The notes beneath the pieces are model-generated. The model saw nothing but the letters and a program-made list of their open reading frames with translations. It made no database searches and was not told where the DNA came from. A stretch of DNA of 63,498 nucleotides from positions 1 to 63,498 of IMG/VR virus record IMGVR_UViG_3300025430_000019; one strand, 5' to 3'. The stretch comes from a virus. This document shows, in pieces, positions 21,603 through 49,600 of the stretch; the stretch's first letter is position 1, and every line of letters starts with the position of its first letter. Both the position numbers and the translations under genes were made by a program.

Positions 21603-23132
21603 TTAATAATATGATTTGCGCCGGTTGGACTTGAAGTAAATTACTTCGTCCTCTTCGTCGGAGTCAAGGCGAATGAAGCCGCCCTTGCGAAAACGTATGA
21701 TTGCTTGGGATGTGGAGTCAACCAAGTCGTCGTGTTCTCCTGACGGGAAACTTGCTATTTCTTCAACTACTTCTTCAGCCCATGATGTTCTTGGCACCCA
21801 GACCCTGCCACTAGCAAATATATCCGCACAGGAATTTAACCTCGCTACTTTATCATTTCCTGCTGATGGTGTGAAGTCTTGAACGGGGATGCCCATCGCC
21901 CTCATCTCAGCTACTAGGGGAGCACCCGACGCCTTAGCCTCTATTATGATTGAATCTGGACTCCAGTCTTTATATTGTTCGTACGCAACTTTCTTGAGTT
22001 CTGGAAACTCCATGCGCCGTTTAAATGAATTAAGCAAAATAATATTTGCCTGGTTAACGCCTCTATCGTCTGGGCGGTCAAAGATACCCCACGTTGTACA
22101 AGCTGAGTAGTCGCTTCGCTGGGTTTTAAGAAATGCAGTATCCCAAGACTGAATAATGAAGTTGACGTAGGGCGGGTGATCTTCTTCCCACCACTGCCAC
22201 CATTCGCGTTTGATAATCGCTGATACATCGCTGGTTGGCTGCTGCATGTACTGCGCCATCCACTTAGCATTAGGAAGTTCTTGGTGAAGCGCTTCTAATT
22301 CATCAATGTTCCAAAATTCTGGCCATAGGGGTTTACCCGAAGGTAATATAGCTGGAAACTCGATCACTTCCCAGTTTTCCCCCGAGCGTTGTGCAGCTGC
22401 TTTTAAGACTTGTCCCGTTAAATCTTTCTTAGACCAGCGGGTCATAACCATAATAATAGAACCACCAGGCTGCAGACGCTGCCTTGGACCTGACGTATAC
22501 CACTCGTAAGTCTTGTCGTAAATCTCTGGGTTGGTTTCGCTTAGCGCCGCTTCTTGCTCAGAGTGCGGGTCGTCAATAATGAGAATGTCCGCGCCCTTAC
22601 CTGTGACAGCACCGCCCACACCGATAGCAAAATAGTCTCCGCCCTCGTTAGTTGCCCACCTGCCAGCTGCCTTGGAATCAGACTGGAGTCCAACTCCAGG
22701 GAAAATTGACTTATATACATCTGAGTCCACAAGATTACGGACCTTTCTTCCGAAACCCACGGCGAGTTCAGCAGTATGAGATGTCTGGATAACTTTTTTC
22801 TTTGGGAATTTACCCAAAAACCAAGCAGGTAATAAGTAAGAAGCAAATTCAGACTTAGTATGGCGCGGAGGCATATTAATAATAAGTCGTTTGATCTCCC
22901 CGTTAGCCACTCTTTCAAACGCCCTAGCCATTTTTGCATGATGTGCTCCGTCGATGAACCCAGGCCAGACTTTATGGGCAAAATCCATGAAGTTGTTCTG
23001 GCAGTTCTCTTTATGTTTAACTTCTAGCGTAGTATCTAGCTGCTCTAGCATCACACGTAGCTCAGAATCCGACAACTTGTCCAGATTATTAAGTAAAAAC
23101 TGGATCTCAGTTGCGTTATTCGGGCTGATCAT
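21603..23132 (-). CDS. terL: Terminase large subunit
   Basis: 509 residues. The ATPase domain shows a Walker A variant MPPRHTKSE at 87-95 and Walker B ILIIDDPH at 183-190, followed by a MVMTRWSKKDLTG coupling motif near 228-240. The nuclease domain has SWDTAF with Asp331, then IIIEAKASG and a late acidic site GEHDDLVDS, giving the RNase H-like metal cluster. It cuts and pumps DNA through the portal at 19030-21594. It overlaps the small-subunit gene by 17 bases. Length and motifs are complete. Confidence 0.93.
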   Translation of the reverse strand: MISPNNATEIQFLLNNLDKLSDSELRVMLEQLDTTLEVKHKENCQNNFMDFAHKVWPGFIDGAHHAKMARAFERVANGEIKRLIINMPPRHTKSEFASYLLPAWFLGKFPKKKVIQTSHTAELAVGFGRKVRNLVDSDVYKSIFPGVGLQSDSKAAGRWATNEGGDYFAIGVGGAVTGKGADILIIDDPHSEQEAALSETNPEIYDKTYEWYTSGPRQRLQPGGSIIMVMTRWSKKDLTGQVLKAAAQRSGENWEVIEFPAILPSGKPLWPEFWNIDELEALHQELPNAKWMAQYMQQPTSDVSAIIKREWWQWWEEDHPPYVNFIIQSWDTAFLKTQRSDYSACTTWGIFDRPDDRGVNQANIILLNSFKRRMEFPELKKVAYEQYKDWSPDSIIIEAKASGAPLVAEMRAMGIPVQDFTPSAGNDKVARLNSCADIFASGRVWVPRTSWAEEVVEEIASFPSGEHDDLVDSTSQAIIRFRKGGFIRLDSDEEDEVIYFKSNRRKSYY

Positions 23133-23953: not shown

Positions 23954-23980
23954 GACATAGTAACAATACGTTATTTTGTC
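23954..23980. promoter_or_regulatory. 27-base dyad, copy 1
   Basis: GACATAGTAAC, spacer AATAC, GTTATTTTGTC. It has the same 11-5-11 geometry as the nine other copies and is the most divergent one. It lies upstream of the first early promoter. Confidence 0.7.
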
Positions 23981-24017
23981 CTTTTCTAAACTATTTTTGT
24001 TGTATTTATACAAACGA

Positions 24018-24046
24018 CGATAAATAGTGGGAAAGTGTGGTAATAT
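24018..24046 (+). promoter_or_regulatory. Early promoter 1
   Basis: -10 TAATAT (24041-24046), preceded by AGTGGGAAAGTGTGG. The core matches promoters at 25392 and 26198 in spacing and sequence, but the -35 region (CGATAA) is poor, so activation may be needed. An inverted repeat GTCGAT/ATCGAC (24053-24072) begins at the expected start of transcription. Confidence 0.6.
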
Positions 24047-24094
24047 CAACCCGTCGATTAATTCCGATCGACATAACTAACAGGAGATACTCAT

Positions 24095-24751
24095 ATGAGT
24101 ACAGAGAAAACAGTAGTTGAATCTACATTGACAGTCGATCAAACCGCATCCTTTGACGATATCGGTTCAACACTCGGCGCTAGTGATATCGACAGAGATA
24201 CAGCGATTGATCTATTCTTTAACCTAGTATTTGTCAATGGTAACGTTGACTATACATTATGGGTTGATGGTTCTAAGCGCATCATGAATGCTTATGCTAT
24301 TAAAAAAGGTATCAAGTGCATTATGAACGATGGAACATTAAACCCAACAGTTAAAACAATGTGGACAAGGTTTACAAAGGACGTAGCTGATAAACATGGT
24401 ATCGTAAAACCTACAAAGCCAACTACTGAGGCTAAAGCAAAAAGCGAGCAAAGGGCTAAAGCTGAAGCTAAACTCGAAGTACTCAAAGCTAAACCAGTAG
24501 AAGAGTTACAAGCTGAGTTAAAGTCTAAGCTGGCTAACCCTACTACTTCAAGTCTTAATGAGGCTAAAGCAATCACTAAAGCAATTGAGGCTAAAGCAAA
24601 GGATATCGAAAAGGCTGAGGATGAGGCTACGAAAACAGTCCGCAAATCGATCAAGGATATGCTAGCGAAAATTGATAGCTACTCTGATTTGGTTGATATT
24701 GAGACATACATTGTAGATATGATTAGCAACCATAGCCCTGCAACATTCTAA
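24095..24751 (+). CDS. Early protein, paralogue 1
   Basis: 218 residues, first gene of the early block. It shares with the gene at 25507-26142 the core TLNPTVKT.W.R.TK...D.HGIVKPTKPT (about 82-108) and a charged helical second half (KAKSEQRAKAEAKLEVLKAKPVEELQAELKSKL). The Lys-rich coil and the conserved TLNPTVKT core could suit a nucleic-acid-binding regulator, but no known domain is recognised. AGGAGA precedes the ATG. Flanked by 27-base dyads on both sides; it is a candidate for the protein that binds them. Confidence 0.7.
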   Translation: MSTEKTVVESTLTVDQTASFDDIGSTLGASDIDRDTAIDLFFNLVFVNGNVDYTLWVDGSKRIMNAYAIKKGIKCIMNDGTLNPTVKTMWTRFTKDVADKHGIVKPTKPTTEAKAKSEQRAKAEAKLEVLKAKPVEELQAELKSKLANPTTSSLNEAKAITKAIEAKAKDIEKAEDEATKTVRKSIKDMLAKIDSYSDLVDIETYIVDMISNHSPATF

Positions 24752-24761
24752 AATCTAGTAA

Positions 24762-24788
24762 GACAGAGTTACAAATTGTAACTTTGTC
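24762..24788. promoter_or_regulatory. 27-base dyad, copy 2
   Basis: GACAGAGTTAC, spacer AAATT, GTAACTTTGTC. It lies ten bases past the stop of paralogue 1 and just before a terminator. Confidence 0.8.
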
Positions 24789-24798
24789 CAATTAGCAA

Positions 24799-24821
24799 AG
24801 CCTCCCTAGGGAGGCTTTTTT
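24799..24821 (+). terminator. Rho-independent terminator after paralogue 1
   Basis: A perfect 18-base palindrome AGCCTCCCT/AGGGAGGCT is followed by TTTTTT. It separates paralogue 1 from the control region. Confidence 0.85.
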
Positions 24822-24928
24822 GTTGTCTCTGCTTTGCGTGTAACGCAAAGTGTAGCATAGATTTTCAGCAAAATCAAATTATTTTTAAAATTTTTTTAGG
24901 GAACTGGTTGTAAGCGACGAACTAGCCC

Positions 24929-24962
24929 CAATCATAGAAAATCCTTAGCACCACGTGATTAA
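24929..24962. repeat. 34-base direct repeat A
   Basis: It begins CAATCATAGAAAATCC and ends CACGTGATTAA; 31 of 34 bases match repeat B at 25131-25164. It contains the palindrome CACGTG and abuts dyad copy 3. Confidence 0.85.
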
Positions 24963-24989
24963 GACTTAGTTACAAAGTGTTACTTTGTC
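24963..24989. promoter_or_regulatory. 27-base dyad, copy 3
   Basis: GACTTAGTTAC, spacer AAAGT, GTTACTTTGTC. It directly follows direct repeat A. Confidence 0.8.
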
Positions 24990-25034
24990 CTGTAATGTTC
25001 GAAAAATCGAGCAATGTTCGCCGTATTGTTCCAC

Positions 25035-25255
25035 GTAAGTTGTTGATTTTAAAGCAAAGTTCTATTGTTCGTATTGTTCCGACAAAAAAAGTACTTTCTG
25101 AAATCTAAAACGGTCTTCGCATGGTGTAAGCAATCATAGAAAATCTTTAGCATCACGTGTTTAATTTCAGTTTCGAGATATAAATAATATAACAATATAA
25201 CATTAGAACACTATACTATTCAATACAATGTTCCTCAATGAAATCAACAACTTAC
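25035..25255. repeat. 15-base inverted repeat bracketing the iteron cluster
   Basis: GTAAGTTGTTGATTT at 25035-25049 and its exact complement AAATCAACAACTTAC at 25241-25255, 191 bases apart. Confidence 0.75.
25131..25164. repeat. 34-base direct repeat B
   Basis: It begins CAATCATAGAAAATCT and ends CACGTGTTTAA. It is a near copy of repeat A, 202 bases downstream, without an adjacent well-conserved dyad. Confidence 0.85.
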
Positions 25256-25391
25256 AAAACTTGATAATGTTCCAAGCACTAGAACATTACAGAACATTGC
25301 CACAAATTAATACTTCGTAACTAGTTTACACCTAACCCGTATTACATTACGTTTCAAATATCGCTGCCTAAATTTTAAGCAGGACAAACGC

Positions 25392-25420
25392 TTGACATGA
25401 GTGGGATTTTGTGGTAATAT
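25392..25420 (+). promoter_or_regulatory. Early promoter 2
   Basis: TTGACA (25392-25397), 17 bases, TAATAT (25415-25420). It is a near-consensus sigma70 promoter, inside a 40-base core shared with the promoter at 26198. An imperfect hairpin (CTTCG...GTTA GAAA TAACGAAG) starts at the expected transcript 5' end, and dyad copy 4 follows. Confidence 0.85.
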
Positions 25421-25451
25421 AGGGCTTCGCCCGTTAGAAATAACGAAGCGA

Positions 25452-25478
25452 GACAAAGTTACATTTCGTTACTTTGTC
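25452..25478. promoter_or_regulatory. 27-base dyad, copy 4
   Basis: GACAAAGTTAC, spacer ATTTC, GTTACTTTGTC. It lies 28 bases before the ATG of paralogue 2, inside its expected leader. Confidence 0.85.
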
Positions 25479-25506
25479 CTTAACCTAAACTTACTGGAGA
25501 GAAACC

Positions 25507-26142
25507 ATGTCATTAGAGAAAACAACAGTATCCGAAGCAGTTGCACAACTTACTGGGCAACAAGTTGCTATCTTCAAATCCCTCGGTGCAGTATTCGCAG
25601 AAAATGAGATGTCGCTTGATTCATCCCTTGATTCATTTAAAGACAACGTGATCATCGAATCGCAGGTTGATTATTATTTGTGGGAAGCAGGCTCACTTGA
25701 GTGGAAGCAGGGATATGCCGAGACAAAGCGAATTAAACTGTACATGACCGATAACACGCTTAACCCAACAGTCAAAACCGCATGGTCACGCTATACCAAA
25801 GCACTAGGTGATAGGCATGGTATCGTGAAGCCTACAAAGCCAACGAGTACTGCAAGCGCTAAGGCATCCCAACGTGCAGGGAACAAAGCGAAAGTGGACG
25901 AGTTGAAAACCAAATCGTTCGATGAACTTGAAGCATTGCTCAAGGGTAAACTAGTGCACCCAACAACGCAGTCCCTCAAGGAAGCAAAGCCCATTCAACA
26001 GGCAATCGAAGCCAAGAAACAAGATATTGTTAAGGCAGAGAATGAGGAGACAAAAGCAATTAAGAAAGCTCTAGTCGAGTGGATGAACGATCAGTCGTAC
26101 GAAACGCTTTACAACCTCGCCGTTAATTACGGTGCGATCTAA
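25507..26142 (+). CDS. Early protein, paralogue 2
   Basis: 211 residues, homologous to the gene at 24095-24751. The shared core is TLNPTVKTAWSRYTKALGDRHGIVKPTKPT (broken in this copy by no gaps), followed by a Lys/Glu-rich helical region (KAKVDELKTKSFDELEALLKGKLVHPTTQSLKEAKPIQQAIEAKKQDI). GGAGAG precedes the ATG. It has its own strong promoter and a dyad in the leader, consistent with autoregulation. No known family is recognised. Confidence 0.7.
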   Translation: MSLEKTTVSEAVAQLTGQQVAIFKSLGAVFAENEMSLDSSLDSFKDNVIIESQVDYYLWEAGSLEWKQGYAETKRIKLYMTDNTLNPTVKTAWSRYTKALGDRHGIVKPTKPTSTASAKASQRAGNKAKVDELKTKSFDELEALLKGKLVHPTTQSLKEAKPIQQAIEAKKQDIVKAENEETKAIKKALVEWMNDQSYETLYNLAVNYGAI

Positions 26143-26164
26143 GCAAATCCAACGCTCGGCAACT

Positions 26165-26178
26165 GCCCCTTCGGGGGC
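26165..26178 (+). terminator. Short hairpin, weak terminator
   Basis: GCCCC, loop TTCG, GGGGC, followed by TATTGTC. The stem is stable but the T tract is poor. It lies 22 bases past paralogue 2 and just before promoter 3. Confidence 0.5.
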
Positions 26179-26197
26179 TATTGTCGTGGACAAACGC

Positions 26198-26226
26198 TTG
26201 ACACAAGTGGGATTTTGTGGTATACT
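26198..26226 (+). promoter_or_regulatory. Early promoter 3
   Basis: TTGACA (26198-26203), 17 bases, TATACT (26221-26226). An 8-base perfect inverted repeat TACTGTAC/GTACAGTA (26223-26243) overlaps the -10 box and start site, as an operator would. Dyad copy 5 follows. It drives the small-gene operon from 26302. Confidence 0.88.
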
Positions 26227-26258
26227 GTACGTTCAGTACAGTAAATTATTTCAACAAC

Positions 26259-26285
26259 GACAAAGTTACATCTCGTTACTTTGTC
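26259..26285. promoter_or_regulatory. 27-base dyad, copy 5
   Basis: GACAAAGTTAC, spacer ATCTC, GTTACTTTGTC. It lies 16 bases before the ATG at 26302. Confidence 0.85.
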
Positions 26286-26301
26286 CCAACAGGAGAGCAT
26301 C

Positions 26302-26496
26302 ATGCAAGTAAAACTTAACCCGACAATCCAAGCACTTGATCGCAAGTTCAACGTGCTATATACAAAACAACTAAGCGACATTCAAGGCATGGCATACGGT
26401 GTGCGTGAGGATTTCGAGCAGGGCGATCGACGCATTACGTTTAATCAATGCTATAACAATGCAAGTAAAACTATCGCATGGTGGATGCCAGTATGA
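26302..26496 (+). CDS. Small early protein
   Basis: 64 residues from the ATG at 26302, chosen for AGGAG seven bases upstream; the frame extends upstream only through the dyad. The sequence (NPTIQALDRKFNVLYTKQLSDIQGMAYGVREDFEQGDRRITFNQCYNNASKTIAWWM) matches no family I know. First gene after promoter 3; its stop overlaps the next start (ATGA). Confidence 0.65.
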   Translation: MQVKLNPTIQALDRKFNVLYTKQLSDIQGMAYGVREDFEQGDRRITFNQCYNNASKTIAWWMPV

Positions 26497-26705
26497 GCGA
26501 CCATCCGCTTTGTACCCAATGCTTTAGCGACACCGTTTCCCCGAAGCGTGTGTTGCTAGGCTACACGGTATGCCTAGAGTGTGGCGAAGCAAACGCCGAG
26601 CGACAAGCTAGGTTGCGTACCGTAGTTCCGATGAACAAGTCCAACTATATATTAGTTAGCGACTTGTCACTTCTTAAACAACTTAACCCAAAGAGAACAA
26701 CATGA
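26493..26705 (+). CDS. Small zinc-ribbon protein, copy 1
   Basis: 70 residues from the ATG at 26493, which overlaps the upstream stop. CTQC and CLEC (residues about 7-10 and 27-30) form a four-cysteine zinc ribbon, similar to that in the gene at 26995-27204. Such small ribbons commonly bind nucleic acid or host proteins; the target is unknown. Its stop overlaps the next ATG. Confidence 0.65.
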   Translation: MSDHPLCTQCFSDTVSPKRVLLGYTVCLECGEANAERQARLRTVVPMNKSNYILVSDLSLLKQLNPKRTT

Positions 26706-26998
26706 CAATTAAACCACAGGCACTTAACATTGAGCGACTAATCAGCCTCGGTATGTACGAGACTAGGAATGAGAGCGCAGCACCCTCAGCATACGCTATG
26801 CTTGAGCAATGCGTGAGCGAAACGCTGGAAGAGATCGAGTCTATATCCGACGAGTTAATCTCTGTTCGCAAGAACGGCATCAGCCGTGACCACATCGACC
26901 TCGTAGTGTTCGATGCGCAATCAAGGCTAGCCAGACTAATGGTCAGACTGAACGACACAGTATCGGAATGCAACTATGTCCATGAGGGAGAAGTATGA
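26702..26998 (+). CDS. Small helical early protein
   Basis: 98 residues, acidic and helical (YAMLEQCVSETLEEIESISDELISVRKNG; FDAQSRLARLMVRLNDTVSE). It sits between the two zinc-ribbon paralogues with ATGA overlaps on both sides. That suggests the three products are made in fixed ratio. No family recognised. Confidence 0.6.
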   Translation: MTIKPQALNIERLISLGMYETRNESAAPSAYAMLEQCVSETLEEIESISDELISVRKNGISRDHIDLVVFDAQSRLARLMVRLNDTVSECNYVHEGEV

Positions 26999-27204
26999 GC
27001 CACTACCACTTACCGATATGCACGAACTGTTATAGCGTTCGTGTTCCACCACGCAATGCACATAGATTGCGTCCAGTTTGCGAGCGATGCGAAGACTCAA
27101 CTACGTTGATGCAAGACTCCAACTCCAAGCTATCCAAATGGTTAGCTACTCGTGTTGACTCACGACGCATCGTAACAACCAATACTAGGAAATCAAATGA
27201 TTGA
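26995..27204 (+). CDS. Small zinc-ribbon protein, copy 2
   Basis: 69 residues. CTNC and CERC (about 9-12 and 29-32) give a four-cysteine ribbon like that at 26493-26705 (CTNCYSVRVPPR versus CTQCFSDTVSPK). The C terminus is basic (RVDSRRIVTTNTRKSND). Likely a duplicated early regulator or host-interaction protein. Overlaps the next gene by eight bases. Confidence 0.65.
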   Translation: MSHYHLPICTNCYSVRVPPRNAHRLRPVCERCEDSTTLMQDSNSKLSKWLATRVDSRRIVTTNTRKSND

Positions 27205-27391
27205 AATATCAATGACCGAGTTATTATTATTTACGTGGGGCGCAGTCATGACTCTGCTCTATTTCAAAACCCAGACCGAATACAAGGAAGCTGAGTATCT
27301 GTTCAGTAAGACTTTGTATCTTATCGCAAAGAAGAAAGCCGTCCTCATTGACGACGGTGACACCTGCCACTTAAAGGGAATAGATGAATAA
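27197..27391 (+). CDS. Small membrane protein
   Basis: 64 residues. An N-terminal hydrophobic segment (about 7-22, TELLLFTWGAVMTLLYF) is followed by a charged cytoplasmic-looking tail. One membrane span is predicted by eye. The role is unknown; early small membrane proteins often alter the host envelope or exclude other phages. Confidence 0.55.
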   Translation: MIEISMTELLLFTWGAVMTLLYFKTQTEYKEAEYLFSKTLYLIAKKKAVLIDDGDTCHLKGIDE

Positions 27392-27494
27392 AGAAAAAGT
27401 ACAACACTTCGTGGTTAATGCTATGTTCACAATCGTGTACGTATTTTGCATTGCCGTTATGTTTATGGATGCTCTAGTATGGCGTCCTCACTAG
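27384..27494 (+). CDS. Tiny membrane protein
   Basis: 36 residues, read directly: MNKEKVQHFVVNAMFTIVYVFCIAVMFMDALVWRPH (given in two parts: MNKEKVQHFVVN and the hydrophobic AMFTIVYVFCIAVMFMDAL). The ATG overlaps the upstream gene by eight bases, and the TAG stop ends on the first base of dyad copy 6. One transmembrane helix. Coupling and composition support a real gene. Confidence 0.5.
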   Translation: MNKEKVQHFVVNAMFTIVYVFCIAVMFMDALVWRPH

Positions 27495-27520
27495 ACAAAG
27501 TTACATCCCGTAACTATGTC
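27494..27520. promoter_or_regulatory. 27-base dyad, copy 6
   Basis: GACAAAGTTAC, spacer ATCCC, GTAACTATGTC. It lies 20 bases before the ATG at 27541. No sigma70 promoter is visible immediately upstream. Confidence 0.85.
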
Positions 27521-27540
27521 CAACAACCCAAGGAAACAAA

Positions 27541-27963
27541 ATGAAAAGAAGTAACTCAAAGAAAGCAACGGTTCTCAAGATGTTAGCCAAGCATCACTCA
27601 CCGAAAGACGTAGCCAAGCAAGCTGGTTGCTCTATTGCATATGTGTATAGCGTGCGTCATGCTGAGAAGATTAAATCTAAGTTCTCTCCGCCGAAGCTAC
27701 CCAAGCCTACGATTGTTGAGAAGCATTGGATACCCGACGCAACAATACCCGAAGGCTACATTCAAATCTCAAATGCCGAGCACGATATGTTAATCAAGAA
27801 CGCATCCAAGGGTAGAGCATACGATAGTGTGCGTGAACGCAACGAAGAACTCGAAGCGCAGTATGCACTATGCGAAGAACAACTCCACATGGAACAATGC
27901 AAAGTGTTTGACCTCAAAGCTATCGTTAAATATTTAGAGGAGAAACTAAATGCCAACAACTAA
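27541..27963 (+). CDS. HTH plus coiled-coil protein
   Basis: 140 residues. Residues 8-40 (KATVLKMLAKHHSPKDVAKQAGCSIAYVYSVR) look like a helix-turn-helix: a helix, then SPKDVAKQAG, a turn, CSIAYVYSV recognition helix. The C terminus (about 95-138, RERNEELEAQYALCEEQLHMEQCKVFDLKAIVKYLEEKL) is a coiled coil that could dimerise it. A dimeric DNA-binding protein is what the 27-base dyads would need, and one dyad sits directly upstream. The link is inference. AAGGAAACAAA precedes the ATG. Confidence 0.65.
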   Translation: MKRSNSKKATVLKMLAKHHSPKDVAKQAGCSIAYVYSVRHAEKIKSKFSPPKLPKPTIVEKHWIPDATIPEGYIQISNAEHDMLIKNASKGRAYDSVRERNEELEAQYALCEEQLHMEQCKVFDLKAIVKYLEEKLNANN

Positions 27964-28924
27964 GATCAATCTTGGTCATGGAAACTGTGCTAGTATCCCG
28001 CAAATCTCATCGTATGCTCAAGCACAGGCACATTACAACTTTGTCAAACCGATACGTGGCGACGACCAAGTGCGACCGATTGGGGCACGACGCTTTAAGT
28101 GGTATACCATTAACAAGCGAGACTACATCGAAGATGCACCGATGTATAGCGCAACGCTAGTTAATACGAACTTAGTCGAGTACTACCACGACGGACGTAT
28201 TAGCATAACCACAGGTGGTTATAGATCAGTGACGAACAACTCATTCCTCAACTTTGTGTTGATGGGCTTGGGCAATGTCGTATCTGTTAGTGGCAAATGG
28301 TATTGGAAACCACATCGTAGCGACAAGTACTATTACTTTCCGATACAACGAAACCATTGGTTGCACCTCGACGAGCAAGGCATACCGACTAATCCAGTAC
28401 AAGAGTACAAGAACTTGATCAACCGCAAAGCAATGAACGCAATACGAAAGAAGTATATGCCGATCATAGAATACGGTCGTCTGATGTTAACGGCTGACCA
28501 AGTTGTACCGTTAAGAATTGTTCATGAGTTACAGGCTGAGTTAAAAAATGTCTTGTCGTTCAAGGTAATGTCTAAACGTATGTATTTTTGGAATACTGAG
28601 TCTAAAGAGCAATACAAGAATGGTATTGCCAAATCCATTGAGTATCTTGACAAGGCGCTTGATACCAACGACTTAGATATGTTCTATAACATAACAATGC
28701 TTATGGCTAATCAGTATGGGCATTACTCATACGTTAGAGAAACAACTACTTGTTCACCCAAGGAGTTCAGAGCAGGATTCGACTTGTACCTCAGGGAAAT
28801 ATATTGGCAAGATGTATTCATCCAAGAGGAACAACCGATAGGCAAGGCGTTTTATGATGCGTACGCATCGTTTCTCGCCAATAAGAAGGACACAGTTACA
28901 GTTCGTAACTATGTCGTTAAGTAA
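27950..28924 (+). CDS. Uncharacterised early protein
   Basis: 324 residues. No family recognised. It is rich in Tyr/Asn/Arg, with segments such as GARRFKWYTINKRDY, YHDGRISITTGGYRSVTNNSFLNFVL and KWYWKPHRSDKYYYFPI. These resemble a beta domain at the N-terminal side, with a helical C-terminal half. Similar proteins sit next to MoxR/VWA genes in other environmental phages, to my recollection. The last codons contain dyad copy 7. GAGGAGAAAC precedes the ATG, which overlaps the upstream gene by 14 bases. Confidence 0.55.
   Translation: MPTTKINLGHGNCASIPQISSYAQAQAHYNFVKPIRGDDQVRPIGARRFKWYTINKRDYIEDAPMYSATLVNTNLVEYYHDGRISITTGGYRSVTNNSFLNFVLMGLGNVVSVSGKWYWKPHRSDKYYYFPIQRNHWLHLDEQGIPTNPVQEYKNLINRKAMNAIRKKYMPIIEYGRLMLTADQVVPLRIVHELQAELKNVLSFKVMSKRMYFWNTESKEQYKNGIAKSIEYLDKALDTNDLDMFYNITMLMANQYGHYSYVRETTTCSPKEFRAGFDLYLREIYWQDVFIQEEQPIGKAFYDAYASFLANKKDTVTVRNYVVK
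28889..28915. promoter_or_regulatory. 27-base dyad, copy 7 (inside coding sequence)
   Basis: GACACAGTTAC, spacer AGTTC, GTAACTATGTC. It lies wholly within the last codons of the 27950-28924 gene and 42 bases before the MoxR gene start. Confidence 0.8.
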
Positions 28925-28957
28925 GTTAGTTAATCATCCACAGAAAAGGAAATCAAA

Positions 28958-30052
28958 ATGTCAGAAGTATTCTTAAACAAAACCGCATCCCTCAAAGAAG
29001 CAGAGGACTTGATCGTAGCTTGTGGCGCAGATGCTACCATTCACCTAGTAGGCGAGCCTGGTGTGGGCAAAACATCTATGTTCAAAAATATTGTACAGAG
29101 AACGGATCATAAAGGGATTTACATCGACGCACCAAACATCGAGCTTGGCGAGTTAGGTATACCAATCCCTGATCACGCAACAAAAACAACTCGTATGTAT
29201 CCAAACGAGCAATGGGGTTTTCATCTCAACGAGCCACTTGTTATCTTTATTGACGAGTTCACCAAAGGTCATCAAGCAGTTCAGAATATGTTGCATCCTA
29301 TGCTCAACGAACCACGTATGATCATGGGCATACCGTTACATCCCGAAACTATTGTTGTAACCGCAGGTAACTTTACAGGCGACGGAGTAGGCGACAACAT
29401 GAAGGCGCATAGCCGTAACCGAGTATCAGTTGTTGCAGTACGCAAGCCACACGCAGGCTTTAACGTAGATGGTTCCGTTGATGAAGACTCATGGGGCGCA
29501 TGGGCAATCAAGCATGACATAGCCCCCGAGATTCTTGCATGGGTTAAGGAAACACCACATACTCTTGCATCATATCTTGACCCTGCACAAAGCGGTAACA
29601 AGTACATCTTCAATCCGAAGGAAGCACAGAAGTCTTTTGTTAGTCCACGTTCCCTTGCTAGAGCATCGCATATTTTGAAACGCAGATCCCAAAGCACCGA
29701 AAACGCAATCATTACTGCGCTCGAAGGTACGATAGGCGCACCTGCATCACGTGATCTTATGGCATACGTTAAGGTGGCTGACAGCTTACCGACGTGGGAA
29801 TCCATAGTGCGTGACCCTGACGTAGCGACTGTTCCGTCATCACCTGCGGCTCTGTGTTTACTTGCGTTTAGCGCCGTTCAACGCGTCGACCGAGACTCAA
29901 TCGGTAAGTTCTTTACGTATCTCAAACGTACACCGAAAGAGTTGCAGTCCGTGTTCTGTTTGACTGGCATGGCTAACGCTGACAAGAAGAAGCTATTCAT
30001 GACTAGCCAATCGTTCATTGACTGGATGCGTACCAATCAATACTTATTCTAA
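28958..30052 (+). CDS. MoxR-type AAA+ ATPase
   Basis: 364 residues. Walker A is GEPGVGKT at 32-39 and Walker B VIFIDE at 95-100, followed by FTKGHQAVQNMLHPMLNEPRMIMGIPLHPETIVVTAGN (sensor 1) and a probable arginine region. The order fits MoxR/CobS-like AAA+ ATPases, which work with a VWA-domain partner; the next gene is such a partner. N4-like phages carry a comparable pair. The substrate is unknown; remodelling of a host or replication complex is plausible. AAAGGAAATC precedes the ATG. Confidence 0.85.
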   Translation: MSEVFLNKTASLKEAEDLIVACGADATIHLVGEPGVGKTSMFKNIVQRTDHKGIYIDAPNIELGELGIPIPDHATKTTRMYPNEQWGFHLNEPLVIFIDEFTKGHQAVQNMLHPMLNEPRMIMGIPLHPETIVVTAGNFTGDGVGDNMKAHSRNRVSVVAVRKPHAGFNVDGSVDEDSWGAWAIKHDIAPEILAWVKETPHTLASYLDPAQSGNKYIFNPKEAQKSFVSPRSLARASHILKRRSQSTENAIITALEGTIGAPASRDLMAYVKVADSLPTWESIVRDPDVATVPSSPAALCLLAFSAVQRVDRDSIGKFFTYLKRTPKELQSVFCLTGMANADKKKLFMTSQSFIDWMRTNQYLF

Positions 30053-30056
30053 ACAC

Positions 30057-30083
30057 GACAGAGTAACACTTTGTAACTTTGTC
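30057..30083. promoter_or_regulatory. 27-base dyad, copy 8
   Basis: GACAGAGTAAC, spacer ACTTT, GTAACTTTGTC. It lies 18 bases before the VWA gene start, between the two genes of the MoxR/VWA pair. Confidence 0.85.
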
Positions 30084-30101
30084 TCAACCAAGGAAATATA
30101 A

Positions 30102-31295
30102 ATGAGTAACTTAACTGCAGAACAACGCATCGAAAGATGCCACGTTCAATTAATGAAACACCCAAGCTTTTGCTTGTTCTCAGGTTTGTTTATGGTGGGT
30201 AAGGTTAGTGTCGATGACAAGACACCGACTGCTAAAACCAACGGTCTTGACGTAACATACGGCAGAGATTTTGTTGGCTCACTCAACGACAAACAACTAG
30301 GCTTTCTTATTCTCCACGAGAATATGCACAAAGCGTATCGTCACCTGGTCGTTTGGAAGACTCTATACAAGCGTAATAGATGGCTTGCCAATGCAGCGTG
30401 CGACTACGTTATTAACTTACAACTCATGGACTATGACCCACATGGACAGGACATCGAGTTCCCAACCGATAAGGATGGCAACCAGATTGGTCTCGTTGAT
30501 GAGAAGTATCGGGGCATGGATGCACACCAAGTGTTTCTTAAATTACTTGAGGAACATGGCGACGTTCAACCCCCCGATGGTGACGAAGGACTCGACGATC
30601 ATGACTGGGAAAGTGCGGAGGAGATGACCGACAAGGAGAAAGAAGAAGCGGCGAAGGAAATCGAAGATGCTCTACGTCAGGGTCAGATACTTGTTGGCAA
30701 GATGAAGGGTAACGTATCACGTGAGGTTCAAGACTTACTTACGCCGAAGGTAGATTGGAAAGAAGCATTGCGTGACTTTATCAAATCAACAACTGCAGGT
30801 AAAGACCAGACGACATGGCGACGACTGCACAAGCGGTACATCGGTATGGATATTGTTATGCCTAGCACATTCGACGAGAAAGTCGGACCTATTACTGTGG
30901 CAATAGATACGTCAGGAAGTATCGGCCACGAGGAACTCGCTCAATTCTTATCCGAGGTTAAGCTAATCTGTGAAGAAGTCAGACCTGAGAAGTTGGACAT
31001 ACTGTACTGGGATACTCGCGTAGCAGGGCATGAGGTTTACTCCGATGCCGAACTTGCTAATGTTGTTTACGTAACCGAAGCCAAGGGCGGTGGTGGTACT
31101 GAACCTTCGTGTGTACCTAAGTATATGCGCAAGCACAACATGACTCCCGAGTGTCTTATTATGCTAACAGATGGTTACATTGGCGACCAGACTCGCAACG
31201 ACTGGTCAATCAATTCTCCAATCATGTGGTGTATCAAAGGCAACAACCACTTCGACAACGCTAGCGTGACAGGAAAGGTTGTTCATGTCGAGTGA
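30102..31295 (+). CDS. VWA-domain protein with metallopeptidase-like N terminus
   Basis: 397 residues. Residues 72-76 are HENMH in LILHENMHKAYRH, an HExxH zinc-site pattern as in DUF2201-type putative metallopeptidase domains. The middle is acidic (DGDEGLDDHDWESAEEMTDKEKEEAAKEIED). The C-terminal VWA domain has the MIDAS motif DTSGS near 268-272 and LTDGYIGD near 360. It is the expected partner of the MoxR ATPase upstream. Whether the HExxH site is active cannot be judged here. Confidence 0.8.
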   Translation: MSNLTAEQRIERCHVQLMKHPSFCLFSGLFMVGKVSVDDKTPTAKTNGLDVTYGRDFVGSLNDKQLGFLILHENMHKAYRHLVVWKTLYKRNRWLANAACDYVINLQLMDYDPHGQDIEFPTDKDGNQIGLVDEKYRGMDAHQVFLKLLEEHGDVQPPDGDEGLDDHDWESAEEMTDKEKEEAAKEIEDALRQGQILVGKMKGNVSREVQDLLTPKVDWKEALRDFIKSTTAGKDQTTWRRLHKRYIGMDIVMPSTFDEKVGPITVAIDTSGSIGHEELAQFLSEVKLICEEVRPEKLDILYWDTRVAGHEVYSDAELANVVYVTEAKGGGGTEPSCVPKYMRKHNMTPECLIMLTDGYIGDQTRNDWSINSPIMWCIKGNNHFDNASVTGKVVHVE

Positions 31296-31509
31296 GATAA
31301 AAGATTGGTGTGTAATTCGGGTCTATCACCGTAGGCTCGAAACAGTCAGCAACGACTTTGTGCGGTACGAAGCCGCCAACGTATTCAATGCTCCACCACA
31401 CAAGCGTATGGGTGTGGAGTACTTGACCAAAGAAGAAGCAGAAGCAATGGCTAAATTTTTAAACTTTATTGAGGAATCAAATGAAAGAAACGATAGTACC
31501 CCAAGGTAG
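31285..31509 (+). CDS. Small early protein
   Basis: 74 residues from the ATG at 31285; AGGAAAGG lies upstream within the VWA gene, overlapped by 11 bases. The sequence (IKDWCVIRVYHRRLETVSNDFVRYEAANVFNAPPHKRMGVEYLTKEEAEAMAKFLNF) suggests a small alpha/beta fold. No family recognised. Overlaps the next gene by 29 bases. Confidence 0.55.
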   Translation: MSSEIKDWCVIRVYHRRLETVSNDFVRYEAANVFNAPPHKRMGVEYLTKEEAEAMAKFLNFIEESNERNDSTPR

Positions 31510-31666
31510 GAAGTTAGACAACAAAGTAAACATAAGTCTTAACCGTGAGACCGTTGAACAGTTGGCGAAGTTCAAAGACAGACTCGGAGAAGTGCTGGGT
31601 GTAGAGCTATCCTATGCTCAAGCTATACAGTACTTAATTAAACATCAACCAACCAAGACAGAGTAA
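31481..31666 (+). CDS. Ribbon-helix-helix-like small protein
   Basis: 61 residues from the ATG at 31481 (GAGGAATCAA upstream). The pattern KVNISLNRETVEQLAKFKDRLGEVLGVELSYAQAIQYLIKH fits an Arc/CopG-like fold: a short strand, a helix, a turn and a second helix. RHH dimers bind palindromic DNA, so this is another candidate for the dyads. Its TAA stop lies inside dyad copy 9, which would couple gene end and operator. Confidence 0.5.
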   Translation: MKETIVPQGRKLDNKVNISLNRETVEQLAKFKDRLGEVLGVELSYAQAIQYLIKHQPTKTE

Positions 31667-31683
31667 CAGTTTGTAACTTTGTC
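31657..31683. promoter_or_regulatory. 27-base dyad, copy 9
   Basis: GACAGAGTAAC, spacer AGTTT, GTAACTTTGTC. The left arm contains the stop codon of the RHH-like gene. It lies 26 bases before the ATG at 31710. Confidence 0.85.
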
Positions 31684-31709
31684 CATCTTTAATACACAGG
31701 AGAATTCAT

Positions 31710-32579
31710 ATGACAACAGAAAACAGTATTTCAATCGCATCATCATCAATGCTAGTAGAGTTATCAATCAGTACTTGGACTGCACGTAAGTTAGACAAGC
31801 GTGTATCAGCCGAGGTTGATCTCGCAAAGGGTACTAAGACACAGGCAGGTAACTACAACAAGAATCTGCTTGCAGGTACAGGGGTGTTGGAAAACATTAC
31901 CAAGTACGCATCCAATGCGAGAGCATGGCATATTAAACAAACATTACCTTGGTCTGACAGTGGCTTGCGTTTGTTACCGATGACTAACTTCATTGCGTAC
32001 AAGGAACAACTCAATCAGCTAGAACAGAACTACGACGCTTTAGTTTCTAAGTTCCTGATAGCCTACCCTGAGTTGGTATCAGCAGCTGCGTTTCAATTAG
32101 GTTCACTCTTTAATAGAGACGAGTACCCTGAGTCACACAAGATTGCAACCAAGTTCAAGTTCTCTTACAACTTCCTTCCAGTACCAATGGCAGGTGACTT
32201 CCGTATCGACATCAACGAAGAAGCGAAGAACGAGATCATCGAGTCATGCCGTAAGATGTATGACGAGCGTCTTAACAACGCAATGCGTGATGCGTGGACT
32301 AGGTTGCACACTTGCCTCATTCACTTGAGCGAGAGGTTAGCCCCAACCGAACAAGGTGAACGTAAGATATTCAGAGACACATTAGTAGAGAATACGAAAG
32401 AGTTACTGGAGTTATTAAAACATTTTAATCTCACACATGACCCGAAGCTTGATCAGGCTAGGCAGGAATTGCAACAAGCGTTAGGCGCACACACGGCTGA
32501 CACATTGCGTGACATGGAGATGGCACGTGAGACAGTCAAGGCTAGAGTCGATGAGATTCTTGGTAAATTTAATTGGTAA
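31710..32579 (+). CDS. Conserved early protein of the MoxR/VWA module
   Basis: 289 residues, mainly helical (YKEQLNQLEQNYDALVSKFLIAYPELVSAAAFQLGSLFNRDEYPE; MRDAWTRLHTCLIHLSERL). The beginning SSSMLVELSISTWTARKLDKRVS is a pattern I associate with phage proteins encoded beside MoxR/CobS-like ATPases (possibly the DUF3150 type; not certain). It would be a third component of that complex. CAGGAGAATTCAT precedes the ATG, with a dyad just upstream. Confidence 0.6.
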   Translation: MTTENSISIASSSMLVELSISTWTARKLDKRVSAEVDLAKGTKTQAGNYNKNLLAGTGVLENITKYASNARAWHIKQTLPWSDSGLRLLPMTNFIAYKEQLNQLEQNYDALVSKFLIAYPELVSAAAFQLGSLFNRDEYPESHKIATKFKFSYNFLPVPMAGDFRIDINEEAKNEIIESCRKMYDERLNNAMRDAWTRLHTCLIHLSERLAPTEQGERKIFRDTLVENTKELLELLKHFNLTHDPKLDQARQELQQALGAHTADTLRDMEMARETVKARVDEILGKFNW

Positions 32580-32588
32580 GGAAATATT

Positions 32589-33458
32589 ATGTTAACAATA
32601 AACAGAGATCAACTAAACATAGACAAACGGCAGACACCGATACATCCTGATTTGGAGAAGTTTGCAACGCAAGTATCATTCGCTAAACCTTTGTGTACAT
32701 TTATAGCATTGAAAGATTGTTTTAAGAACGTATACCATGAAGGGAATTGGAGTGACTATATATACAAGCTACATATCTACCAAAACGGTGATAAGGTAGG
32801 CGAAGTATTTGTAGATACCCATTACAAGCAAGGTACTAACGAGCGTGAATCAATCTACGGCATCAAGTCTTTTCGCATAGAAAAAAGCCGAGGTGATCGT
32901 AACTCAACTACATCCAGAGATATGAAGGTAGCCCTACGTATTGCTAAGAAAACGCTTGTTGCGAGAGAGCTGGAAGAAATGCGTAGTGTCATTGACGACA
33001 AGGTACGTGGTTGCATCGGTAATATAATGTACCGCACGACAGGTATGTTGACGTACACTATGGATATAAACCATGAAGCCCAGTTGTATGCAATATCAGC
33101 GTATCAAGCTAGGAAGAAAGGCGAAACAACTGTTACTGTACCTGCGCATCCCGTGACTGTAACCGCTAGCAAGCTTAACGACCACACCATTGCGTGCGAT
33201 TTGTATATGGAAATATATGCACTTAAACAGTATCTCAAAGCTAACACAGGATACGGCATTAAAGTAATGGCTGACGACAGTATCATAATGCTAACGTATA
33301 GTACGGGCGAATTGTCTCGCTTAAGTTCTTATCATGAGTTACCCGATAGTATTCAGTCTAAGTTTGCGATGTTCAAGGTACTCAAGGATGACGAGCCGTA
33401 TGCGCATCTTGGTTGTAAATTTAACGAGAATATATTTTATATAGCCCCCGATACTTGA
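32589..33458 (+). CDS. Uncharacterised early protein
   Basis: 289 residues. The N-terminal part is alpha/beta (FIALKDCFKNVYHEGNWSDYIYKLHIYQNGDKVGEVFVDTHY). A central basic helix follows (TTSRDMKVALRIAKKTLVARELEEMRSVIDDKVRGC). No known domain is recognised. It follows the 31710-32579 gene by nine bases with AAGGAAATATT as ribosome site. Probably in the same operon and pathway. Confidence 0.55.
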   Translation: MLTINRDQLNIDKRQTPIHPDLEKFATQVSFAKPLCTFIALKDCFKNVYHEGNWSDYIYKLHIYQNGDKVGEVFVDTHYKQGTNERESIYGIKSFRIEKSRGDRNSTTSRDMKVALRIAKKTLVARELEEMRSVIDDKVRGCIGNIMYRTTGMLTYTMDINHEAQLYAISAYQARKKGETTVTVPAHPVTVTASKLNDHTIACDLYMEIYALKQYLKANTGYGIKVMADDSIIMLTYSTGELSRLSSYHELPDSIQSKFAMFKVLKDDEPYAHLGCKFNENIFYIAPDT

Positions 33459-33588
33459 TACAATACACACAGAATCCTCCTGTGGATTTCTCTGGACTGT
33501 GATACGTTGACCTAACAGATGTTTGCGTAACTAAAACAAGTCTCTCCTCACCGCAAGTAGGATGCGGAATCTGTTTAGCCTACACACT

Positions 33589-33613
33589 AAGCCCTCCTCG
33601 TGAGGGCTTTTTT
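33589..33613 (+). terminator. Rho-independent terminator
   Basis: AAGCCCTC, loop CTCGT, GAGGGCTT, with the T run continuing to 33613 (TTTTTT). It ends the operon that begins at promoter 3. Confidence 0.88.
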
Positions 33614-33617
33614 ATTG

Positions 33618-33644
33618 GACAAAGTTACATATTGTTACTTTGTC
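33618..33644. promoter_or_regulatory. 27-base dyad, copy 10
   Basis: GACAAAGTTAC, spacer ATATT, GTTACTTTGTC. It lies upstream of the promoter at 33673, as copy 1 does for promoter 1. No further copy is seen to the right. Confidence 0.85.
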
Positions 33645-33672
33645 CTATTAGGGTTTTTTCCTAAAATATTTC

Positions 33673-46661: not shown

Positions 46662-46688
46662 CCCTCACCCTCGTGGTGGGGGTTTTTT
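46662..46688 (+). terminator. Terminator of the early block
   Basis: CCCTCACC, loop CTCGT, GGTGGGGG, then TTTTTT (46683-46688). The eight-pair stem includes one T-G pair. It lies at the convergence point and touches the stop codon of the opposing 2142-residue gene. No comparable T tract serves the leftward direction. Confidence 0.88.
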
Positions 46689-49600
46689 ATTCTTCATTTG
46701 CATAATTACGCCATCCTTCAAGTTGGGGTATCATTCTTTTATCTATACCCATACCACCTGTGATGTTAGAAAGCGCTCTATTTTTATAGCGAGTTTTAAT
46801 AGAATTTGTTAACGCATCTGGTGTAATGGCTTTGCCCGGATTAGTTTGGCTGAAATGCACGATCTTAGCAATGACTTTATCCATCATATATGTATCACCA
46901 GAATCTAAAGCAATAAAGAAGGCATTTAACAAATCATTATGTCTAGCAATAATTTCTTGTTCTGCATTTTTCATTTCAATATTTGCTTTTTGTGCTTGCG
47001 CGATTTTATCGGGCGTAAAACCAAGCATCTGTGCCAAAGCAAGGCGAGCAGGAACTTCTTCCATTAAAGTGTCACCTTTCATAGTAAGAGCTTGACCTTC
47101 TGAAAGATAGCGTAATCCAGTCATGACGTTTTTAATAGCAGATGGCATAGCGGTTTCAATAGCACGTTCTGTATGGCCTTGATTAAAACGATCTAATGCT
47201 TCAGCATAAGTTACTAACGCGCCAGCAGATGGGCCAAGCAAACTCATCATAGTATTTTGTAACGTAGTAAGGTCATCCTTACCTTTACGTACATCTTGGA
47301 ACCATAAGTCAGGTAAATTAGTGCTCATACGGTCTGCAAAGTTCAGTCCGCTGACTGTAGACAACGCGCCACGAGATAGTATTTCACCCGTAAACCCACC
47401 TAAATGTTTAAAGCACCAGTTCTTAAACCAATTTTCGGCATCAAACGGTTCGTCTGAATCACCAAATGCTGCATGAAAAGCTGAAGCAATGCCAGAGAAT
47501 ATAAACCAAAATGGTAAACCCGTCATGCCAGATGTAAGAAACGCCATGCCCATCATACCTAAGAACTGATCACGTGCTTCACGTTTAATACTTTCAAGTT
47601 CTTTAATCTTAGCTTTCATCAATTCTTCTTTATGCGGCGAGTTACGCATCTCTCGCTCATATGCAATAAGTTCAGCTTGCATACCATCGCCCAAAGATTT
47701 TTGAAGTGTTCTAAACATTAGCACAGTCATCTGTTGCGGATACATTTTAAATTGCAACAAAATATTACGGTAGTTACCGCGGAAATATCTTGGTTTATTG
47801 GTAGTGTTGTAGTTAAACAAAGTCTTTTTAACTAACGCATCGGCTTCTTGTATGGCTGTTTGGTAAGCTTGTTCTGCGGTATAACGTTGTTTACCATCAT
47901 GAGTTTTAGCATCTAACGCTTTATTATAGGCTAATTCAAATGTTGCCATAAACGTTGTCTCACGCATGTATTTTTCAGATGCGTGAAACGGTAAACTTGC
48001 GTAGTACATTATTTTGTTCCATCGACCAGTGTATTGGTTTGATGGTTTTTCACCGATTTGCGCAGCTTCATGCGATAGCGTAACATCAATAGTTCCGCGT
48101 CTAACGCCGTCTTGGTATACGTCGGCATAAGTCTTACCTATAGAATTACCGTTTTTATCTTTAACATCCATGCCTTCCATATTGGCTCTGGCTAGTGATA
48201 AAAACTCATATCTGCCTGATGTTTCATTTACAAATCCTGTTCCACCAAGCATACGATTAAACTTTGCAAACGCACTCGCTGTATTTTTTAACCCATACCT
48301 AGCATTTGCAGCAGGCGCCCATACGCCTCCAACACCAAGCAAGTTAATCATAAACGATGCTGGCGCAGTTAAGAAGTTTATAAAGCCAAATTGATTTAAC
48401 GCAGTGACAATTCCACTTTGTTTTGGTGGGTTAAGAATAGCAGTCTTAAGGTTTAACTCAAGTTCATGTACGTAATCTCTATACTTTAATGCCTCTCTAG
48501 CAGGCAGGCTTTTTAAACGTACTTGTGCTGAACGAAGGTCGGTGAATAGCTGTGGTAAATGCTCAAACCTAGAACGCTGATATGCCATACGTAAACGAGA
48601 CACTTCAAATGCACGAAGCATATCAATACTTGCACCAGGTATATTTTCACGGTGCATAAACATCTTACGAATACTTTCGTTTGGCATTAGCTCTAAATAC
48701 ATTTGGCCGAGTTGATCTTTAACTTGGTCGCGTAACGCCCCAATAGGGTCAGCTAATACTTTAGCATCTGAGCTACCTAAAATATCTTCCGTAGATTTAT
48801 CAACTAGAGATTTTAAACTTTCTAAATGCGCCCAGTCACTTAAATTACTATTAAGAATTTCGCTGAAATTATTTCCTGCTTGAATATCGCCACTTTCTTC
48901 AACTTGCCTAAGTACTTCTTCATCTGATGTGCCTTTTATAAAAGTACTTTTACCTTTTTCCTTTTTGATTAAGCGCTCTAATTCTTGTTCATAGGCATCA
49001 TCACGAGCACCGGCAGTTTCAAATTGCTGGAAAGTTTTACTTTTGCCTTTGCCTGTTTGCAACCAGAATTCGCCAAAACGTTTAAGCGGAAAGTAAATTT
49101 TAAGCGCGTCTTTAGCTATATTGTTTTTTAACTTAACTAATTCATCGTTAATTTCTTTTTCTGAAAGACCTTCACTTTTTAGTCTAGCATGAGTACGTTC
49201 TGCCTGGATTGCTATGTACTCATCCATACGTCTTTTATAAAAATCACGCACTTCACGATAAATTTTTAACGCTGTTCTACCGTCTTCAGTGCCGTCAACC
49301 ATTTTGTTCCAGGCATCTTTAAACCGTTTATCAACGTTGTGCCAGTTTGCGGCATCGTGTGCAGGGCCAGTAGTATCGGCTTCAATTTGATCAATCGTAG
49401 CATTAAGCATTACTTCATGCAACTGTTGAGCTTTATCAGGATTACTTTGAATTAATTGACTCCAAAGTTTAATTGCAGTATCGCCTTCCGCAAGTATTTT
49501 ATTGCGGGTATAAATCATTGCATCAACTTCTTTAACGTAATCTTTGAACTGTGGGATATTATCTCCAACAAGATCTGATAATTGGTCTAGTGTTAAAGCA

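Follow-up and report, generated by a model that had tools for sequence, protein, structure and literature searches.

Gene arrangement and features of the region

The window (the whole stretch of DNA that was analysed, 63,498 bases) is the record of an uncultured freshwater phage and is classed as linear. Genes up to 24 kb run leftward and encode terminase, portal and structural proteins; a rightward block from 24 to 46 kb holds the early and replication genes, including those for an AAA ATPase (28958), a DUF2201/VWA protein (30102), DNA polymerase A (34754), an SNF2 helicase (40627) and a DUF927 primase-helicase (43615); and the remaining virion genes run leftward from the early block to the end of the record. 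A 2142-aa gene lies at 46687-53115, and the C-terminal part of its product matches DarB-like antirestriction PHROG families. Among named phages, RHph_TM3_14A and KPP25 come closest in their DNA polymerase (36% identical).

The region studied, 24752-25506, lies immediately to the right of the divergence point between leftward and rightward genes, with the large terminase gene (21603-23132) and its neighbour close by and divergent from it. It is the largest ORF-free gap in the window (755 bp, compared with 236 bp for the next) and, as originally predicted, separates two paralogous genes whose products are 47% identical (97/205). The upstream product has no Pfam or PHROG match, and an A1-type protein paralogous to it gave no PDB or BFVD fold match at E≤0.001. 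The features, in order along the sequence, are listed below.

24095-24751, + strand: upstream flanking gene, 218 aa, family A1
24762-24789: dyad 1 (GACAGAGTTAC-n5-GTAACTTTGTCC), between the stop codon and the terminator
24797-24826, + strand: intrinsic terminator for the upstream gene, with its hairpin at 24797-24818 and then a T-rich tail
24899-24927, + strand: element E1, GGGAACTGGTTGTAAGCGACG(C)..., strongly conserved, with one mismatch to its 22-nt consensus (24899-24920) in the window
24929-24962, + strand: 34-nt direct repeat, copy 1, directly after E1
24963-24990: dyad 2, bordering the iteron array on its left
24994-25079, + strand: left iteron block, five AWTGTTC sites (24994, 25013, 25025, 25064 and 25073; spacings 19-12-39-9)
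25035-25049, + strand: element E3, TAAGTNNTTGATT, the left arm of the 15-bp inverted repeat
25108-25130, + strand: element E2, acGGTCTTCGCATgGTGTAA (in relatives AAAGACCCCCTTCGCATAGTG)
25131-25164, + strand: 34-nt direct repeat, copy 2, directly after E2
25160-25222: AT block with inverted iterons (AACAATATAACATTAGAACA), a candidate unwinding element with a lowest 60-bp GC of 0.18
25227-25298: right iteron block, AWTGTTC at 25227 (+), 25266 (+), 25282-25288 (-) and 25292-25298 (-)
25241-25255, - strand: second, inverted E3, the right arm of the 15-bp inverted repeat
25392-25420, + strand: sigma70 early promoter TTGACA-17-TAATAT, with TG preceding the -10, at the end of the region
25452-25479: dyad 3, in the leader between the promoter and the ribosome-binding site
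25507-26142, + strand: downstream flanking gene, 211 aa, of the same superfamily as the upstream gene
26198-26226: second strong early promoter TTGACA-17-TATACT, a near-copy of the 25392 promoter, followed by a dyad

The original prediction, made from the density of nested repeats, treated this whole stretch as one replication or partition control region. Its individual repeats are all present: the two 34-base direct repeats at 24929 and 25131 are identical at 31 of 34 positions (91%), the 15-base inverted repeat 25035/25241 is perfect (100% complementary) and consists of the two E3 copies, and the heptamers, dyads, terminator hairpin and strong promoter are in place. They proved to be of different natures. 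The terminator and the 25392 promoter are ordinary early-transcription signals. An Rfam search of the region gave only sub-threshold Phe_leader matches, at the terminator hairpin, and a weak PhotoRC-I match, all of which were taken as chance.

The iteron array and the AT block

Nine AWTGTTC heptamers in both orientations, as predicted, lie between 24994 and 25298 (seven on the + strand and two on the - strand), out of 43 in the whole window. The nine fall within 311 bp, compared with a maximum of three in 300 first-order simulations; 2000 simulations that used the composition of the region itself averaged 0.33 and reached at most four. A further GAACA site, absent from the original prediction, lies at 25206 inside the AT block, and the 120-bp stretch beginning at 25131 has the second lowest GC in the whole window. 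The region thus has what is looked for in an iteron-type origin, namely multiple copies of a short sequence in one intergenic region and an adjacent AT-rich element (60-bp GC minimum 0.18).

Conservation of the array in related phages

Fourteen fully syntenic relatives, found through the AAA gene, were used for alignment; L094 and L104, which also match A1, stood outside these 14 and have 2 and 8 sites in 400 bp, respectively, with L094 ending near the gene. The aligned order begins with a terminator-like sequence at the place corresponding to the window's terminator, followed by E1 (GGGAACTGGTTGTAAGCGACGC), one dyad, forward TGTTC iterons and E2 (GACCCCCTTCGCATAGTG), and continues with the AT block with inverted iterons (TATATAGAACAATAGAACATTATA), iterons in both orientations, a sigma70 promoter (at the corresponding place, of the TTGACA-17-TATACT type), a second dyad and a gene. 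Each of the 14 relatives has 6-12 AWTGTTC sites per 400 bp, with 9 in the window and 0.25-0.49 expected from the locus average. Hence, of the repeats that the original prediction would have expected to recur in close relatives sharing the replication genes, the heptamer cluster is there and the 34-nt repeats were seen in none of the 14 aligned relatives; judged from the alignment, the latter look like an accessory feature of the window's lineage, outside the conserved core.

A wider scan with the AAA protein gave 72 loci, 57 of them with at least 3 kb upstream of the AAA gene. At AAA identities of at least 61%, 33 of 39 such loci had 6-13 AWTGTTC sites in 400 bp, although this represents fewer than 33 independent cases because several loci are near-duplicates; below 61% identity, the cluster was found in 0 of 18. 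Among the six loci without it, L039, L040 and L041 (looked at among 17 chosen loci) instead have AATGTTA, in 10-12 copies at the matching place, L016 and L024 have a short upstream stretch, and L026 has no clear cluster in the 10 kb upstream of AAA. The array stands 2.4-5.4 kb upstream of the AAA-ATPase gene, near a GC dip. In a motif-blind 7-mer search of the 49 loci (of 72) with at least 4.5 kb upstream of AAA, the top clustered 7-mer (at least 5 copies, ties included) contained TGTT/AACA in 31 of 33 close loci and in 8 of 16 distant ones, L073 being counted through a tie (its listed top 7-mer is AAGTGGC); another 7-mer came out on top in 6 of the 16 distant loci, and two close and two distant loci had no cluster of five. 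Related iterons (AATGTTA, TGTTTAT and TGTTACG) occupy the same place in part of the remaining loci and in KPP25. At the DNA level, a search of named phages with the L042 region gave no match at E≤1, and with the window array no homologue, the matches listed having E of about 1 or more and covering at most 15% of the query.

The internal geometry of the cassette is also conserved. In 20 of 21 cassettes, the last + strand iteron lies 101-123 bp from the AT block (in L186 the block could not be recognised), and the 60-bp GC minima across 20 cassettes are 0.08-0.30. The left-block spacings of the window (19-12-39-9) recur in L186, and L038 and L078 have 20-12-39-9. One copy of E3 with no more than one mismatch was found in 19 of 21 cassettes, L053 and L175 being without it, and the opposed E3 pair occurs in the window, L023, L038 and L078. 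The distance from the AT block to the promoter -35 is variable (114-201 bp, and 345 bp in L051, where a reversed 61-aa ORF lies between array and promoter).

The surroundings of the array are less constant. In most genomes it precedes the A2 gene, but in L023 and L186 it follows that gene, the order there being E1, promoter, dyad, A2 gene, terminator, E1, array and promoter; elsewhere it precedes A2 or another gene, and the gene behind the promoter differs between genomes. E1 is a 22-nt element that heads early units after a terminator and is separable from the array: it stands before two units in L023 (5820 and 6737), L186 (8440 and 9349) and L187 (907 and 3, minus strand, L187 ending at its second E1), with the array found once each in L023 and L186. 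Conversely, 17 loci keep the array without E1 (allowing up to 4 mismatches) and without a match to A1 or A2. A host origin of E1 was considered and set aside, as its three matches in genome contigs, none of them with the array, are about what chance would give by our own estimate.

Comparison with KPP25-type phages and known replication origins

In KPP25, clusters of TGTTACGA/TCGTAACA with AT-rich tracts lie at 1059-1484 and 32922-33200 of locus L199 (26.4 and 58.3 kb in the record), and the TGTTACGA clusters are the two lowest-GC 120-bp stretches of the genome (0.30 and 0.34, the next being 0.44). KPP25, phiR18, CRPAP1904 and R4900a each have two clusters, the first in the early block and the second in the late block at a distance of about half a genome, and these are candidates for a pair of origins. 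The portions of the KPP25/Kochitakasuvirus literature covered gave no description of such a pair as origins, and the phrase 'origin of replication' has 0 occurrences in the portion of PMC13340246 covered. KPP25 and phiR18 (Kochitakasuvirus) resemble the window in having tandem TGTTACGA iterons, in KPP25 within its AT-richest stretches, at an early intergenic place; they differ in having two clusters and another iteron sequence, and the DNA polymerase is only 36% identical. In RHph_TM3_14A, the lowest-GC stretch (0.23) lies inside the corresponding 770-bp early gap of that phage.

Two characterised systems have a comparable anatomy. SPP1 has oriL and oriR, each with direct repeats plus an AT-rich DUE (in the sections of PMC6316719 covered), and is alike in placing repeats of initiator sites beside an AT-rich unwinding element and, with respect to the KPP25-type relatives, in having an early copy and a second, late copy. 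The window differs in that a gp38-like initiator was not identified, in its 7-8 bp iterons in both orientations around the AT block, and in its single array. The lambda ori (PMC7466680, in part) is similar in that its iterons border an AT-rich tract and stand behind a promoter in the early region; it differs in being part of the initiator gene O and in its 4 iterons (6 in Stx phages), whereas the array of the window is intergenic, has 10 short sites in opposed blocks and has no initiator gene around it.

A candidate origin of replication and its alternatives

Because the array is tied neither to one gene nor to E1 and keeps no fixed distance to the promoter, a genome-level element is the favoured reading, and the array is a candidate iteron origin; one array per locus, moving relative to the genes, staying early and having an AT-rich centre, is as expected of such an element. 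We therefore favour, with some reservation and on the strength of sequence comparison, the reading that the core at about 24990-25300 is an iteron-type origin of DNA replication. The whole region is probably a composite early control region, in which the origin is joined to the main early promoter. From the anatomy and the comparison with relatives, we infer how such an origin would fire: an initiator encoded by the phage would attach to the TGTTC iterons in the opposed blocks flanking the AT block (25160-25222), would melt this block and would then load the phage helicase-primase, and the sigma70 promoter at 25392, from which early transcription starts, may help to activate the origin. As for the predicted control function, the conserved heptamers, their fixed geometry and the GC minimum are in keeping with replication; partition has no support, as none of the proteins scanned matched a partition protein.

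Several observations count against an origin. No initiator was recognised among the proteins scanned, and no fold could be recognised for the A1 and A2 proteins, which are lacking in loci that keep the array. The exceptions L026, L016 and L024, the missing E3 in L053 and L175, the other top 7-mer in 6 of the 16 distant loci and the shortness of the iterons were likewise counted against it; the iterons of lambda and SPP1 are longer than the 7-8 bp sites (8-9 bp spacing) seen here. In the aligned genomes, moreover, a promoter follows the array, so that a role in transcription is possible. GC skew was tried as an origin test and rejected: the window, KPP25 and RHph_TM3_14A each have one extremum within about 1-3 kb of the region, but this is the gene-strand switch, by which the cumulative skew minimum of the window at 23 kb is likewise confounded, and because the extrema coincide with such switches GC skew cannot decide on an origin.

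The main rival to the origin reading is that the TGTTC array controls transcription, as cooperative activator or repressor sites that set the strength or timing of the 25392 promoter. This would agree with the TTGACA-17-TATACT-type promoter that follows the aligned cassettes, with the region being the main early promoter region, and with short tandem sites at 8-9 bp, which fit a cooperative regulator. We nevertheless consider it rather unlikely, since the spacing between AT block and -35 is unconserved (114-345 bp) where the internal geometry is conserved, a reversed ORF separates array and promoter in L051, the second strong early promoter that each genome has (26198 in the window) is without an array in the window, the gene behind the promoter differs between genomes, and control of transcription has no need of a central AT block. 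That the array is instead a packaging site (pac/cos) for the small terminase subunit is suggested by the terminase genes lying, divergently, 1-3 kb to its left; the two clusters of the KPP25-type phages, about half a genome apart, and the association of the array with early promoters and a GC minimum make this quite improbable. A partition or centromere site of a plasmid-like prophage is less probable by far: iterated short sites between paralogous genes are centromere-like in outline only, no ParA/ParM-like or ParB-like family and no integrase match was found among the proteins scanned, and neither Pfam nor PHROG gave a match for the flanking proteins, the array persisting where their genes are lost.

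As an iteron-type origin, the array would offer a precise, testable candidate for a large group of freshwater phages that are uncultured, as well as for the cultured KPP25-type relatives, and the iteron series could help to find the initiator by coevolution.

A dispersed family of dyads upstream of early genes

The three predicted dyads, located at 24762, 24963 and 25452, are members of a wider family that reaches 33.6 kb and was absent from the original prediction. The window has about 11 such imperfect 28-bp sites, all within 23954-33645; scored against the consensus on the better strand, ten copies reach at least 22/28 and one reaches 19, and all other matches in the window score 18 or less. 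Most lie about 45-70 nt upstream of early-gene start codons. A scan that fixed the GAC/GTC ends and required complementarity at 8 or more of 11 positions gave 129 candidates, of which eight were removed by eye as chance-like (L027 2774, L042 1379 and 6140, L054 3057 and 11161, L073 10696, L078 13700 and L051 4424), leaving 121 from 15 genomes. These fall into five sequence classes that differ by genome (GTTAC, GTGTC, CTTAG, CTGAC and ATAAG). In 94 of the 121, an RBS-like start codon lies no more than 90 nt downstream, with a median gap of 21 nt. A promoter matching at least 9/12, with the end of its -10 lying 15-60 nt before the dyad, accompanies 32 of the 121 (compared with 3.7% in the control), with at least two such dyads per genome; these promoter-linked dyads usually lie 31-46 nt after the -10, and the remaining sites have no promoter there.

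The two halves are unequal at particular positions. Position 5 is identical in 20 of the 121 sites compared with 47.8 expected within genomes (0 of 5000 shuffles), a deficit that is conservative because the scan criteria favour identity of the halves. Position 6 is identical in 75 of the 121 compared with 86.5 expected, and positions 9 and 10 show no covariation, position 10 being identical in 96 of 121 (97.5 expected). Homologous dyads in related genomes are not independent, and in a subset of 6 diverse genomes position 5 was identical in 7 sites compared with 17.9 expected. Only L078 departs from this, its halves being symmetric at position 5 (7/7). The asymmetric CTTAG-class sites occur in both orientations before genes, in a ratio of about 18:7.

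These sites might alternatively act at the RNA level, as hairpins in mRNA leaders (translational or RNase III signals), and not as DNA operators, which would not conflict with the origin reading. Consistent with this are their place in leaders (a median of 21 nt to the start codon in 94 of 121), most of them without a promoter within 60 bp upstream, and the mismatches in the sense orientation, where over 129 sites G.U exceeded A.C (28 compared with 11) and A.A exceeded T.T (111 compared with 47). On the other side, the halves vary independently at positions 9 and 10, the asymmetric CTTAG-class dyad stands in either orientation before genes, and position 5 is identical less often than by chance (20 compared with 47.8) and therefore pairing is not the selected property. 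RNA hairpins are thus a possible, if doubtful, explanation. From the sequence patterns, the dyads are read as a separate, dispersed operator-like system, DNA sites with selection against a perfect transcript hairpin; they would be operators for a phage DNA-binding protein in early-gene leaders, probably shutting early transcription down. Such asymmetry would be an unusual signature, that of palindromes with selection for unequal halves at one position.

The closest parallel is with the stoperators of cluster A mycobacteriophages, many repressor-type sites spread over early units in a genome-specific version (as described in the part of PMC6550527 covered), and the dyads are likewise numerous near dispersed early units, with their own sequence version in each genome. 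Stoperators, in contrast, are 13-bp, asymmetric sites mostly in one orientation, whereas the dyads are 27-28 bp imperfect palindromes, unequal at position 5 and beside the RBS, for which the repressor is only a candidate. That candidate reader is the product of a 65-aa ribbon-helix-helix-like ORF at 31469-31666, which ends in a dyad and is present in 10 of 10 genomes with GTTAC, GTGTC or ATAAG dyads and in 0 of 5 with CTTAG or CTGAC dyads. Its predicted fold has an N-terminal extended stretch and two helices and weakly matches TCP-type DNA-binding domains (E 0.6); it has no Pfam match, the ribbon-helix-helix label coming from the sequence pattern. Heterodimers of A1 and A2 reading the two halves were rejected as an explanation, as L078 is symmetric at position 5 and L023 has both genes, so that the contrast by presence of A2 fails.

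Taken together, the two systems allow a joint reading that we offer as speculative: a gene-independent origin cassette, its iteron drifting (AATGTTC, AATGTTA, TGTTTAT, TGTTACG) around a constant TGTT core, and a genome-wide set of asymmetric operators might together switch the phage from early transcription to replication, with selection keeping the palindromic leader sites unequal at one or two positions, whereby they would be bound as DNA without forming a perfect hairpin. RHph_TM3_14A (L200 6047-9329 and 18464) has dispersed dyads of its own, of the GGTTACC-n-GGTAAC type, before early genes.
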